Assembly: GCF_026616195.1 (NCBI RefSeq) | Contig: NZ_JANHDH010000001.1 | Coordinates: 434,001-498,000, forward strand | DNA: 64,000 bases | Source: Haloarchaeobius amylolyticus | Lineage (GTDB): Archaea > Halobacteriota > Halobacteria > Halobacteriales > Natrialbaceae | Direction: 5' to 3' | Shown: positions 9,940 to 14,405 of the stretch, piece by piece | Layout of the letters: each line of letters starts with the position of its first letter | Numbering within the stretch: the stretch's first letter is position 1 | Notes under the pieces: model-generated | What the model was told of the DNA's origin: nothing | What the model saw: only the letters and a program-made list of their open reading frames with translations | The model's database searches: none | Position numbers and translations under genes: made by a program

Positions 9940-10410
9940 TCACTCCGTCTCGTTGCGCTCGCCCGGTTCCTCGAGCAGGATGCGCGCGATGTTCGACAGC
10001 GCCCGCTGGCACACCGGGACGTAGCCGGCCGCGAGCAGTGGTACCTCGAAGACGACCCGGCACTGCTCCTCGCCGAGGTACTCCGCCCGGTGGCCGGTCG
10101 CCGGGATGCCCGCCACGTCCCAGGTCCAGCGCTCGCCGTCGGCGAACGTCACCGCGAAGGAGACCCACGGCCCGCCGAGGACCCGGACCTTCCCCTCGTC
10201 CCCGGCCGAGATGAACCGGTCCGGAGCCTCTACGTCGGTGACCGTCGGCCCCCAGTCGGGCCAGCGCCACGTGTCTGTGAGCAGTTCCCACGCGAGCATC
10301 CGGTCGACGGGGAGGTCCCGCGAGACCTCTATCCGGCGCCCGTCGGGGGTGCGTGCGAGCCGGACCTGTGGCCGTGATTGCATGTGGTACACCATGGCAT
10401 ACTGTCGCAT
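9940..10410 (-). CDS. SRPBCC/START-like domain protein
   Basis: A 156-residue protein with the SRPBCC (Bet v1-like) pattern: an initial beta strand IEVSRDLPVDRMLAWELLTDTWRWPDWGP, then repeated strands (WVSFAVTFADGERWTWDVAG) and a long C-terminal helix (CQRALSNIARILLEE). Such domains hold hydrophobic ligands. Starts at 10410, 10395 and 10383 are possible; 10410 is nearest to a TATA-like GTAAACG on the minus strand around 10450. It converges on the flavin-reductase gene. Ligand unknown. Confidence 0.75.
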   Translation of the reverse strand: MRQYAMVYHMQSRPQVRLARTPDGRRIEVSRDLPVDRMLAWELLTDTWRWPDWGPTVTDVEAPDRFISAGDEGKVRVLGGPWVSFAVTFADGERWTWDVAGIPATGHRAEYLGEEQCRVVFEVPLLAAGYVPVCQRALSNIARILLEEPGERNETE

Positions 10411-10520
10411 AAGGGTACCGTCGGGTGCCCACCGACCGGCCGGAAGGGCGTTTACGTCACCTGATTGACCGGCGGGGCCGGTATATTCAACTAGGCCGCG
10501 ACCTTGGCTCAGGACGACGA

Positions 10521-11444
10521 ATGATAACCGTCGAGGACCTCCGAAAAGAGTACGACGGGTTCGTGGCCGTCGACGGCAGTTCCTTCACCATCGACCGCGG
10601 CGAGGTCTTCGGCGTCGTCGGCCCGAACGGTGCCGGAAAGACGACGACGTTGAAGATGCTCGCCGGCCTCATCGAGCCGACGAGCGGCCACATCTCGGTC
10701 GCCGGGCAGCCCGCCGGCGACGCCGACATGCGGCGCAACCTCGGCTTCCTCCCCGAGGAGTCCCCGCTGTACGAGGAGATGACGGCGCACTCCTACCTCG
10801 AGTTCTTCGCCGACCTGTACGACGTGCCCGACGACGTGGCGCGAGAGCGCATCACGACCGCCCTGGACCGACTCGACCTCGAACACCGGGAACGACGCAT
10901 CGGCGACATGTCGAAGGGGATGAAGCGCAAGGTCGCCATCGCCCGGTCGCTGGTCAACGACCCGGACGTGCTCATCTACGACGAGCCGGCGTCCGGGCTG
11001 GACCCCCTCACGACGAACTACATCATCGAGTTCACCGAACAGCTCGCCGAGCAGGGCAAGACCATCGTCTTCTCGGCGCACAACCTCTACCACGTCGAGA
11101 GCATCTGCGACCGCGTCATCGTGATGAACCACGGCGACATCATCGCCCGCGGGACCCTCGAAGAGATCCGCCGCGAGCACGGCCGGACGACCTACCACGT
11201 GTTCACCGACGTCCGGGTCGAGGACTGCGAGCGCGTCGGCGAGGGGCGCTTCGAGACGGTCGTCTCGGACATGGCCGCGGTCGACCGCATCCGGTCGCAG
11301 GCAACCGCCCGCGGTGGGTCGGTCGTCGACCTCCAGACGGAGAACCCGAGCCTGGAGGACATCTTCCTCGACATCGCCGGGGAGACGCCGGAGGAGGCCC
11401 GCGAGACGGAGACCGACCGGACCCTCGGGGAGGCCGAGACGTGA
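10521..11444 (+). CDS. ABC transporter ATP-binding protein (NatA/CcmA type)
   Basis: A 307-residue ATPase: Walker A GPNGAGKTTTLK (about residues 34-45), Q-loop region LPEESPLYEEMTAHSY, signature MSKGMKRKVAIARSLV, Walker B DVLIYDEPASGLDP and a switch His in FSAHNLYHVE. The final 80 residues form the C-terminal extension of ABC-2 exporter ATPases. A TATA-like GTATATTC near 10481 precedes the ATG at 10521 by about 37 bases. It drives the two permeases encoded immediately downstream; the first overlaps its stop by 4 bp (GTGA). The exported substrate is unknown. Confidence 0.93.
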   Translation: MITVEDLRKEYDGFVAVDGSSFTIDRGEVFGVVGPNGAGKTTTLKMLAGLIEPTSGHISVAGQPAGDADMRRNLGFLPEESPLYEEMTAHSYLEFFADLYDVPDDVARERITTALDRLDLEHRERRIGDMSKGMKRKVAIARSLVNDPDVLIYDEPASGLDPLTTNYIIEFTEQLAEQGKTIVFSAHNLYHVESICDRVIVMNHGDIIARGTLEEIRREHGRTTYHVFTDVRVEDCERVGEGRFETVVSDMAAVDRIRSQATARGGSVVDLQTENPSLEDIFLDIAGETPEEARETETDRTLGEAET

Positions 11445-13282
11445 GGAAGCCGGGGTTCGACCGGGTCCTCTCGCTCCGCAAGACACTGCGCATCGCCCGG
11501 TGGGAGGTCGCCCGCAGCGCGGGCACCCTCGACCGGCAGACGGTCGCCCTCGCGCTCGTCCTCGTGGCCGTCGGCGCCGTGGTCGGCCCGACCGTCGTCG
11601 CCGACGGCCCCGGCCTCGACGAGGGCATCTACCGCGTCGGGGTCGAGACGGACTCTCCCTACCACGACGTGGTCACGAACACGAGCCAGTTCGTGGCCAG
11701 ACCCGACCACGCCAGCGCCAGCTCCCTCAAAGCGGGCGAGATAGACATCCTGATACCCGAACGCGGGGAACCAATCCCGCGCTCGACCCGGAAGGGACAG
11801 GCGGCCTACGCGGAGTTCCGGACCGCGGTCCAGGAGTACAACGACCAGCTGATGGGCGAGGAGTCGAACCGGAGCGCCGCCTTCCCCGTCGACGTCCAGG
11901 TCCAGTACGAGAGCCGCGGCGGCAGCGAGTTCACGGGCGGGACCGGGACCGGCGGCACCGGCGATGCCGGCACCGGCAGTGACGGCGCCGGTGGCGGTAG
12001 CGATGCCGGAACCGGTGGCGGCACCGACGGCGGGCAGGCCGGCGACGGAACCGACGGCGACGGGCAGGTGCAGGCGCCCCGACTCGGCGGTTCCTCCATC
12101 GTCAGCGGCTCGACCGCGGGCTCGCCGAGCAACATCAGCCCGCCGTTCCCCTTCGCCTCGCTGGTGCTGGCGTTCCTGTTCATCGTCCCGATGAACTTCG
12201 TCATCCAGGCGTACGGGAGCACCATCATCAACGAGCGCATCAACCGCCGCGGCGAGTTGATGCTGGTCTCGCCCGTCTCGCGCCGTGACATCATCGCCGG
12301 CAAGACCCTGCCCTACCTCGCCGCGTTGCTGGTCATCACGGTCGCCATCGCCATCCTCATCGGCGGGTCGGCGGTGTCGGTCGGGGCGGTCCTCCCCATC
12401 GCGCTGGTGTTCCTCGCGGCGACGTTCGTCGGCGGGATGTTCGCGCGGTCGTTCAAGGAGCTGACCTTCGTCACCATCACCGTCTCCGTGTTCATGACCT
12501 CCTACGTGTTCGTCCCGGCCATCTTCACGGACGTGACGCCCATCGCGCTCATCTCGCCGCTGACGCTGGTCGTCATGGACCTGCAGAACGAGGCCGTGAC
12601 GGCGGGCCAGTACGTCTTCTCCACGCTCCCGTTCTACCTGACCGCGATGGCGATGTTCACCTTCGGCGCGGGTACCTACCGCGAGGAGGACATGTTCAGC
12701 CAGCGCCCGGTCCACCAGAAGGCGCTCGACGCCGTCGCGACCCGGGTGCGGAACAAGCGGACGGTCGCGCTCGTGACGGCCCTGTTCCTCCCGTTCGTCT
12801 TCGTCGCGGAGTTGCTCGCCATCGCGGTCCTGTTCATCATCCCGCCCGCGCTGTCGGTGCCGGTGCTGTTCGGGGCCATCGCGCTCATCGAGGAGACCGC
12901 GAAGAGCATCCACGTCTACGCCGGGTTCGAGTACTCGCGGTTCGAGCGGTCGCCGAAGACCGCGGTCGTACTCGGGCTGGTCAGCGGGCTCGCGTTCTTC
13001 CTCGCCGAGAAGCTCACCCTGCTCGTCCAGCTGGTGCAACTCCAGACCCTCGAACTGGGTGGCCGCGCCTATCCCGGTGCGGCGGCCGCCGACCCGGCCA
13101 GTGGGGTCGACCCCCTGGTCGTCGTCGGCCTGCTCTTGCTCCCGCTGGGGCTGCACACCGTCACGGCGACCATCTCGGCGCTGGGTGCCCAGCGCTCGAA
13201 GCGGGCCTACGCCGGAGCCTTCGTGCTCGCGGTCGTGGTCCACGTCGGCTACAACATGGGGGTGACCGGCCTTGTCGGGTGA
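11441..13282 (+). CDS. ABC-2 permease fused to a PrsW-like membrane protease
   Basis: A 613-residue protein. The N-terminal two thirds is an ABC-2 type permease: a first membrane helix, an extracellular loop with a Gly/Ser/Asp-rich low-complexity linker (about 165-215), then five helices around SRRDIIAGKTLPY. The last 180 residues match a PrsW/CPBP-type intramembrane protease: EETAK at 484-488, FFLAE with Phe519 and Glu523, and HVGYN with His601 and Asn605. The GTG start overlaps the ATPase stop. The fusion puts a protease module inside an exporter, hinting at processing of a peptide or membrane protein cargo (inference). Confidence 0.85.
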   Translation: MRKPGFDRVLSLRKTLRIARWEVARSAGTLDRQTVALALVLVAVGAVVGPTVVADGPGLDEGIYRVGVETDSPYHDVVTNTSQFVARPDHASASSLKAGEIDILIPERGEPIPRSTRKGQAAYAEFRTAVQEYNDQLMGEESNRSAAFPVDVQVQYESRGGSEFTGGTGTGGTGDAGTGSDGAGGGSDAGTGGGTDGGQAGDGTDGDGQVQAPRLGGSSIVSGSTAGSPSNISPPFPFASLVLAFLFIVPMNFVIQAYGSTIINERINRRGELMLVSPVSRRDIIAGKTLPYLAALLVITVAIAILIGGSAVSVGAVLPIALVFLAATFVGGMFARSFKELTFVTITVSVFMTSYVFVPAIFTDVTPIALISPLTLVVMDLQNEAVTAGQYVFSTLPFYLTAMAMFTFGAGTYREEDMFSQRPVHQKALDAVATRVRNKRTVALVTALFLPFVFVAELLAIAVLFIIPPALSVPVLFGAIALIEETAKSIHVYAGFEYSRFERSPKTAVVLGLVSGLAFFLAEKLTLLVQLVQLQTLELGGRAYPGAAAADPASGVDPLVVVGLLLLPLGLHTVTATISALGAQRSKRAYAGAFVLAVVVHVGYNMGVTGLVG

Positions 13283-14405
13283 CCCGCCGCGTCCCGAGCA
13301 CGGGAGCACTGCCGCCCGGCGGGAAGACGAGGCGAGCGACGGCAGCGGCGCGTCCTGGCGTGCCCGGCTCACCATCGCCCGCCGGGAGATCGCCTCGCTG
13401 CGGAGCGAGAAGACCATCGTGCTCGCGCTACTCATCCAGCTGTTCGTGGCGACGTTCTCCTCGTTCCTCGTCGTCGGGCTGGTGTCGCTGTACGACCCCG
13501 GCTCGGTCGACGGCTACCAGCTCGACATGGCCGTGACGGGCAACGCCTCCGACGAGGTGCTGCAGGCGGTCCGCGGGCAGTCCGGCATCGACCCGACCCG
13601 GTACGCGTCGGTCGCCGACGCGAGAGCCGACTTCCAGGACCGGCGCGTCGACGCGGTGATGGTCGCCACACAGGGCGCGAACGGGACGGTGTTCGTCACG
13701 ACCAGCGTGCCGAAGGAGAACCTGCGGACGACCATCATCGTCGTGCAGGTCCGGGATACGCTGGAGTCCATGGAGGAGAACCTCCGCCGCGAGTACGCAG
13801 GGAGCCTCGAACACCGGGTGCTGGAGGTGCCACAGAAGCGCGGCTCCAGCCCCTACTTCGGGTTCACCTACACCGTGCTCGTACCCCTGCTCATGTTCCT
13901 CCCGGTGTTCATCAGTGGCTCCATCGCGGTGGACTCGCTGACCGAGGAGATGCAACGCGGGACCCTCGAACTGCTGCGGGTCGCGCCCGTCTCGCTGGCG
14001 GACATCGTCGACGCGAAACTGCTCGCGACGGCCATCCTCGCCCCCATCCAGGCCGCGGTCTGGCTCCTCCTGCTGTGGGTCAACGGGACGAAAATCGCGA
14101 ACTGGCCGATGCTCGTGGCCGTCGTGGCCGGCCTCTCGTTCACCGTCGTCACCGCGGGACTGACCATCGCCCTGCTCGCCTCGGACCGCCGGCAGGCGCA
14201 GTTCCTCTACTCGACCGGGGTGCTCGGGGCCATCACGGTGACGGGCCTGCTGCCAGAGCACCCGGCGAACACCATCGCCCGGCTCGCCATCGGCAGCCCC
14301 GGGACGTACACCTGGGTGTTCGCGGCCGGCTACGTCGCCCTCGGCGTGGTGACCTACCTCGGGATGCGCGTCGGGATGCGCTTCGTGAACGCCGAGTCGG
14401 TCTGA
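13272..14405 (+). CDS. ABC-2 type permease, second subunit
   Basis: A 377-residue ABC-2 permease: a cytoplasmic acidic tail, a helix at about 48-72, a large extracytoplasmic loop (75-185) with NASDEVLQAV and TTSVPKENLRT, then five helices including LEEMQRG-like TEEMQRGTLELLRVAP, the usual permease coupling region. The start is TTG at 13272, overlapping the previous stop by 11 bp; the next in-frame ATG would remove the first membrane helix. It probably pairs with the permease/PrsW fusion as a heterodimer driven by the ATPase at 10521. Confidence 0.88.
   Translation: MSGDPPRPEHGSTAARREDEASDGSGASWRARLTIARREIASLRSEKTIVLALLIQLFVATFSSFLVVGLVSLYDPGSVDGYQLDMAVTGNASDEVLQAVRGQSGIDPTRYASVADARADFQDRRVDAVMVATQGANGTVFVTTSVPKENLRTTIIVVQVRDTLESMEENLRREYAGSLEHRVLEVPQKRGSSPYFGFTYTVLVPLLMFLPVFISGSIAVDSLTEEMQRGTLELLRVAPVSLADIVDAKLLATAILAPIQAAVWLLLLWVNGTKIANWPMLVAVVAGLSFTVVTAGLTIALLASDRRQAQFLYSTGVLGAITVTGLLPEHPANTIARLAIGSPGTYTWVFAAGYVALGVVTYLGMRVGMRFVNAESV

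Follow-up and report, generated by a model that had tools for sequence, protein, structure and literature searches.

A haloarchaeal ABC exporter permease fused to a predicted PrsW-type intramembrane protease

Introduction

Why would one half of an ATP-binding cassette (ABC) exporter be built into the same chain as a domain that looks like an intramembrane protease? The question is raised by a gene at positions 11441-13282 (+ strand) in a stretch of 64,000 nucleotides from the haloarchaeon Haloarchaeobius amylolyticus (order Halobacteriales; assembly GCF_026616195.1, contig NZ_JANHDH010000001.1, positions 434,001 to 498,000). This whole stretch is referred to as the window, and all coordinates are given in it. 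A first-pass annotation of the window, made from the sequence alone, had proposed that the gene joins an ABC-2 permease to an intramembrane protease of the "PrsW/CPBP kind", that its operon also encodes an ATPase and a second permease, and that the result might be a transporter that can also cleave what it carries, or a regulator in the membrane. Here, we describe the fusion, assign its protease domain to a family, follow the gene set through one archaeal phylum, and weigh what the encoded machine may do.

Results

The open reading frame (ORF) 11441-13282 runs from a GTG start and encodes a single chain of 613 amino acids, the fusion protein, so that permease and protease-like domain share one polypeptide with exactly the boundaries that the first-pass annotation had given. 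The C-terminal domain (residues 439-613; 12755..13279, +) has five transmembrane (TM) helices and is modelled with confidence (predicted local distance difference test score, pLDDT, 89.0; predicted template modelling score, pTM, 0.85); its predicted fold is that of APH-1, and it matches a PrsW profile. The three motifs noticed in the first-pass annotation lie at its positions: EETAK at residues 484-488 (E484, E485 and K488; 12890..12904, +), FFLAE at residues 519-523 within a motif FFLAEK (F519, E523 and K524; 12995..13012, +), and HVGYN at residues 601-605 (H601 and N605; 13241..13255, +). Between the second and the last of these we found a fourth, H572 (13154..13156, +), which that annotation had missed.

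Conservation was assessed in 94 fusion sequences. The order contributes 48 of them, and the other 46 come from the 107 outside-order genomes with a match; the set consists of 88 sequences and six more that were picked since their profile match ended early. The two Glu and the Lys of the first motif, E523, K524, H572 and H601 are each present in 94/94, F519 is present in 87/88, and position 605 is Asn in 85 sequences and Asp in 9. Only eight of the 174 columns of the domain are invariant (E484, E485, K488, E523, K524, P568, H572 and H601). All six motif Glu, Lys and His residues are among them, a coincidence with a random-placement probability of about 8e-10, which is a rough estimate in which neither residue-type bias nor shared descent is taken into account. 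That the motifs arose by chance is rejected on this invariance, and the loss of motif residues in orthologues, which the first-pass annotation had named as grounds for abandoning a protease, is not what the 94 sequences display. A wider set of 97 distinct sequences from the order retains E484, E485, K488, F519, E523 and K524 in 96 cases and H572 and H601 in 95; the exceptions are one sequence cut by a contig end (L096) and one in which the query match ends at residue 546 (L100). By comparison, T575, G582 and A583 are invariant within the order's set and variable outside it, and in a quick tree the 48 order sequences form one group, with weak support (0.40). Motif residues frozen in a drifting scaffold are a mark of catalysis, and this pattern suggests that the domain is still an enzyme.

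Which family the domain belongs to had been left between two names, of which the evidence supports PrsW rather than CPBP. PrsW agrees with the four motifs, the profile match and the fold, whereas membership of CPBP/CAAX was rejected, given EExxK in place of EExxxR and the absence of a PF02517 match in the fusion; PF02517 has nine places in the genome, none of them at the fusion. PrsW is favoured over CPBP/CAAX because of the extra His. According to a published comparison, PrsW proteins have an additional conserved His in the fifth helix that type II CAAX proteases lack (PMC4602095); H572, present in 94/94, answers to it, and the EExxK, FxxxE and HxxxN/D motifs of PrsW are present as well. Stand-alone PrsW proteins (PF13367, MEROPS M82) likewise carry EExxK, FxxxE, H and HxxxN/D in consecutive TM helices, and their profiles can be aligned with those of the fusion. 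Part of the case for homology comes from the Pfam PrsW model, PF13367, for which 40 genomes were searched; of the 20 with a fusion, seven contain an orthologue over its cut-off and two a match below it, and in 11 it was undetected. Against 32 stand-alone haloarchaeal PrsW domains, hhalign gave E 1.6e-8 (probability 95.5) for the haloarchaeal fusion set, E 5.5e-7 (92.3) for the mixed set and E 1.6e-5 (79.1) for 40 fusion domains from outside the order, and the alignment obtained with the mixed set pairs EExxK, FxxxE, H and HxxxN of the two families. When the domain profile was run against its own genome, it retrieved, after itself, two of the three stand-alone PrsW genes, both weakly (E 0.016 and 0.92), and in a genome without the fusion (G149) the top match of the full profile is a stand-alone PrsW (E 1.6e-4). 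The fusion was unmatched in hhalign against 15 CPBP domains, a small set chosen by motif pattern; this negative is weak because the PrsW set, from the same superfamily, failed to match these domains too (probability 4.4). Unlike stand-alone PrsW, the domain is joined to an ABC permease, and the residue after the motif-2 Glu is Lys in 94/94 fusions and Asn in 32/32 stand-alone haloarchaeal PrsW sequences, a set whose selection pattern allowed only Asn or Tyr there and passed all 32 loci given. In these alignments, the Lys is a private mark of the fused branch.

Structural comparison points in the same direction. Among solved structures, three gamma-secretase entries match the domain model best, each through its chain C (Z 10.7-11.3 over 156-163 aligned residues). 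Close behind is chain 6 of a multipass-translocon complex with Z 10.6, after which the values fall to 7.8. In entry 5a63, chain C is reported to be APH-1 (PMC6588880), and the titles of the other two entries suggest the same for theirs; PrsW, Rce1 and APH-1 have been placed in one superfamily (PMC4602095, PMC6588880). The structure tool warns that helical bundles with Z under about 13 may reflect a common arrangement, and we therefore trust the fold only jointly with the motifs. Foldseek gave no match at E <= 0.001 for either the full model or the domain, for which APH-1 ranks fourth (E 1.6). Rce1 (4CAD) was not among the matches listed for the domain model, which is not evidence of absence, and sequence searches of solved structures gave no meaningful match for the fusion or the 48-member alignment A1 and none for alignment A2. 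The first-pass annotation had proposed to give up the protease should a structural model lack a protease-like active site; the model obtained is a confident one with a PrsW/APH-1/Rce1 fold. Motifs, profiles and model, which differ in weight, together support a C-terminal domain of PrsW type rather than CPBP/CAAX type.

The permease half (residues 1-421; 11441..12703, +) comprises an elbow helix, six TM helices and a large external domain. It is just over the cut-off of ABC2_membrane_3 (PF12698; match at residues 238-463 of the fusion, 33.1 bits against a cut-off of 31.6), the permease being the one part of the fusion for which Pfam is confident, and no NCBIfam model matched. The full model of the fusion has a pLDDT of 77.8 and is poorest in a loop at about residues 151-234, a Gly/Thr/Asp-rich stretch with pLDDT under 50. 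This loop belongs to the domain between TM1 and TM2 (11606..12151, +), which is delimited by the secondary structure of the model and presumably lies on the external side of the membrane. With Z values of 12-15, the permease half of the model resembles a mycobacterial efflux pump as well as ABCA4, ABCA7, NosFY and ABCG25, in a second structural comparison of the full model that tested only residues 9-426 well; a type-V exporter (ABC-2) fold is supported for this half by the model. Residues 413-438 form a linker (12677..12754, +) with a conserved YREEDMF...Q, in which the columns Y413-Q421 are near-invariant. By the positive-inside rule, the linker would be cytoplasmic and would be followed by the five protease helices, leaving the C-terminus outside; with helix ends taken from the model, the motif residues fall near mid-helix.

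The fusion gene overlaps both of its neighbours, which are the ATPase and second permease genes foreseen in the first-pass annotation. Its start shares 4 bases with the end of the ABC ATPase gene (10425..11444, +), and its end overlaps the gene of the second ABC-2 permease (13272..14405, +; PF12698 E 6.8e-18), the probable partner of the fusion, by 11 bases. The ATPase (PF00005 E 3.2e-32, 112.4 bits) carries GPNGAGKTT, DEP and SAH, the Walker-motif equipment expected of a cognate ATPase; it is over the cut-off of DrrA1-3_C, and drrA is its best NCBIfam model, with a score below cut-off. Because most orthologue alignments start at its residues 29-33, homology suggests that the true start is the ATG at 10521. 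A kinship of the permease half and the second permease through recent duplication was not supported (hhalign probability 40 over 30 columns). The closest named relatives of the fusion are from Haloarchaeobius, one with 65% identity in the search listing and 70% in full alignment (L039) and one with 76% over residues 228-612 (L062). Orthologues are also present in several Haloferax species (among them loci L049, L075 and L110). Divergent from the operon lies an SRPBCC/polyketide-cyclase-like gene (9940-10410, - strand; PF10604 below cut-off). BLAST locates a relative of this gene next to the operon at 26 of 76 haloarchaeal loci, perhaps through synteny alone.

We then asked how widely this arrangement occurs. 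Of the 293 genomes sampled from the order, 209 matched the fusion query with E <= 0.001, strongly in 202 cases (E about 1e-88 or lower) and weakly in seven (G005, G071, G077, G105, G149, G226 and G250). A gene-prediction artefact or a local fusion is rejected because of the strong matches in 202 of the 293 genomes. When the seven weak genomes were searched again with the full profile (E up to 1), four were blank, and the matches in G005 and G105, as well as a second match in G149, span only the permease stretch. The second permease follows the fusion closely in its occurrence: its matches at E <= 1e-20 are found in 203 of the 293 genomes, namely the same 202 with a strong fusion match and G149, where the match is much weaker (E 4.8e-36). 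At 106 loci of the order, which represent 97 distinct fusion sequences and include some genomes twice, the ATPase and the second permease are each present in 104; the exceptions are an orphan copy without either gene (L070) and two loci cut by contig ends (L088 and L096).

Distribution was assessed within one phylum, which we take to be GTDB Halobacteriota, presumably with many methanogens. In the phylum sample, 148 of 294 genomes matched. Outside the order, the matches extend to 14 families, one of which (f32, genome G319) has its match broken up into two frames. All 40 loci examined in these families have the second permease gene directly after that of the fusion. The ATPase gene lies upstream, in opposite orientation in 36 of the 40 loci and in shared orientation in L212; L174, L189 and L211 yielded no ATPase. 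Within the order all three genes are on one strand. The three-gene layout was altered at least once, with gene content constant, and since the partners co-occur in loci inside and outside the order, the gene set is fixed despite the changed transcription layout. The orphan copy is a second fusion gene of Halorussus salinisoli (L070:1985-10232) that has no ATPase or second permease within 12 kb. It is flanked by homing-endonuclease-associated HNH repeat genes, directly upstream and, past one unassigned ORF, downstream, and it has all four motifs intact.

Discussion

We propose that the operon encodes a machine in which an intramembrane protease cuts membrane-embedded proteins or peptides and a tethered exporter removes the products, a proposal to which we give an even chance. 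The fusion, the second permease and the ATPase, the last as a dimer by analogy, would form one heteromeric type-V ABC exporter complex, with the PrsW-type protease tied to one permease through the cytoplasmic linker. The protease would cleave small membrane-embedded proteins, or leftover signal or anchor peptides, inside the bilayer, and the attached exporter would pull the hydrophobic cleavage product from the bilayer and push it out. What the sequences establish is the fusion, its domains, the four motifs and their invariance, the fixed gene set and the shared occurrence of fusion and second permease; the formation of a complex, catalysis, peptide substrates, the direction of transport and its coupling to cutting are inferences. 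Analogy also makes plausible what the first-pass annotation had in mind, namely that the transporter may cleave either its cargo or a regulator in the membrane. Intramembrane proteases are paired with ABC transporters for peptide release in Firmicutes, where Eep or RasP works with EcsAB or PptAB (PMC7157817, PMC2996298): in Staphylococcus aureus both Eep and EcsAB are reported to be required for the release of linear peptides from lipoprotein leaders (PMC7157817), and for the RasP/EcsAB pairing of Bacillus subtilis a membrane-cleaning role has been proposed for Ecs (PMC2996298). The best model, by this analogy, is that the fusion may be a covalent counterpart of the Eep and EcsAB pairing; it differs from the Firmicutes systems in that their protease and transporter are separate proteins and in that it has no HExxH.

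Several observations weigh against the cutting and clearing of membrane peptides. Like RasP, Eep is an S2P-type metalloprotease, with the S2P fold and not that of PrsW. The report on the S. aureus precedent itself terms Eep a membrane metalloprotease (PMC7157817). The fusion protein of the window is under the cut-off of the Pfam PrsW model, PF13367, which matches only one of 48 orthologues as protein at E up to 0.01. No cargo or precursor gene accompanies the operon: a search of its surroundings for a conserved gene of cargo or regulator type was negative at 76 loci of the order, where the largest cluster of genes other than the operon's own covers 27 loci, and at 40 loci outside it, where the largest covers 13 (ORF clustering included 37 of these 40). 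Finally, 91 of the 293 sampled genomes of the order have no strong match, and the fusion therefore serves no universal process.

The protease might instead serve regulation: the sensing or flux of a toxic compound at the transporter would gate the protease, which would then cut a membrane-anchored regulator at another place in the cell. PrsW of B. subtilis is described as the site-1 protease acting on the anti-sigma factor RsiW (PMC9263693, PMC4602095). Such a role would fit the retention of every motif residue and sits poorly with the lack of a conserved regulator gene beside the operon in the 76 loci of the order and the 40 outside it. We also know of no extracytoplasmic function (ECF) sigma/anti-sigma pair, the target of PrsW, from archaea, and we consider this regulatory reading unlikely. 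More improbable still is that the operon encodes an ordinary drug, lipid or ion exporter whose protease has the transporter or its clients as targets and serves only self-protection or quality control, in analogy to the CPBP/Abi proteins associated with bacteriocin processing and immunity. An exporter of this kind would be in keeping with an ATPase nearest to drrA in NCBIfam, if below cut-off, and over the cut-off of DrrA1-3_C, and with the curated family that already exists for an ABC-permease/CPBP fusion; yet we found no protease-free orthologous permease. Among the matches listed in the order, all reach residue 607 or beyond, and eleven phylum matches that end at residue 533 or earlier all carry the four motifs on inspection, the exceptions to a full-length fusion being a contig-edge fragment (G516) and the copy split over two frames (G319).

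We regard as the least likely alternative, and a very improbable one, a pseudoprotease scaffold in which the APH-1-fold domain binds TM helices and presents them to the exporter with no cutting; the reason is the invariance of the two glutamates in motif 1. The closest solved folds, APH-1 and the multipass-translocon chain 6 (Z 10.6-11.3), would suit a scaffold, and APH-1 itself is reported to have QExxR replacing EExxR (PMC6588880), but the fusion keeps both motif-1 Glu, E523, H572 and H601 in 94/94.

The ABC-PrsW fusion is not categorically new, because the joining of an exporter permease to a protease of the Rce1 superfamily has already been named, with CPBP, in the family NF041647 (ABC permease subunit/CPBP intramembrane protease). 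The members of this family, which we take to be bacterial, differ from the fusion in that their protease is CPBP, that of the fusion being of predicted PrsW type, and in that their permease half weakly resembles the second permease of the operon and not the permease of the fusion. The fusion does not match NF041647 at E up to 10 (curated score 435 bits), and this model is over its cut-off in 0/60 phylum genomes and 0/14 control genomes. By the profile comparisons, the PrsW version is a distinct family with no model in the libraries searched. One recorded haloarchaeal orthologue bears no more than the label 'ABC transporter permease subunit', a likely instance of a predicted protease overlooked by annotation. 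Among the titles and abstract starts listed in searches of the open-access literature, one of which listed 20 of 468 papers, none describes an ABC-PrsW fusion. Peptidase-containing ABC transporters (PCATs) carry a cytosolic C39 cysteine peptidase, unlike the fusion, whose protease is predicted to be intramembrane. Their likeness to the fusion lies in an exporter and a protease in a single chain (PMC7018657). In PrsW-toxin fusions, PrsW is predicted to process a fused polymorphic toxin and extrude it through the membrane (PMC3482391); this is an earlier idea in the same direction as ours, but there the passenger is a toxin domain and export is only predicted, whereas in the present case PrsW is joined to one half of an ABC exporter. 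APH-1 has the same fold as the C-terminal domain of the fusion but carries QExxR at motif 1 (PMC6588880) and is a subunit of gamma-secretase, not of an exporter. A 2022 review of membrane proteases of Haloferax volcanii gives one PrsW-like protein, HVO_0408, possibly the fusion itself, and the word 'ABC' is absent from its main text (PMC9263693).

A broader and more tentative suggestion, which we hold to be possible though rather doubtful, is that of an ancient machine spread across the phylum, in which one polypeptide carries out intramembrane proteolysis and the ATP-driven extraction of the cleaved helix. If true, this would be an archaeal, covalent solution for removing the hydrophobic stubs that intramembrane cleavage leaves behind, and secreted peptide signals of archaea might stem from it. 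To our knowledge, how the peptide remnants of intramembrane cleavage exit the membrane is poorly understood. Because the fusion is one chain and its motifs are kept throughout a phylum with genetically tractable members, a physical coupling of cutting and export would lend itself to study by point mutants. The evidence that ties protease to ABC transporter in Firmicutes comes from the phenotypes of mutants in separate proteins (PMC2996298, PMC7157817).

Two further observations concern the protease fold and its genomic setting. After the APH-1-like matches, several of the next structural neighbours of the domain model (12746-13279) are ABC permeases (Mce, Mla, LptG and NosFY; Z 5-7.8), and a similar resemblance between ABC transmembrane domains and APH-1 is reported in a paper on ECOD; the exporter and protease folds may have a common origin. 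Besides the fusion, the genome (G000; contigs C1, C2 and C4) holds three stand-alone PrsW genes and nine CPBP-like places, a large set of intramembrane-protease genes.

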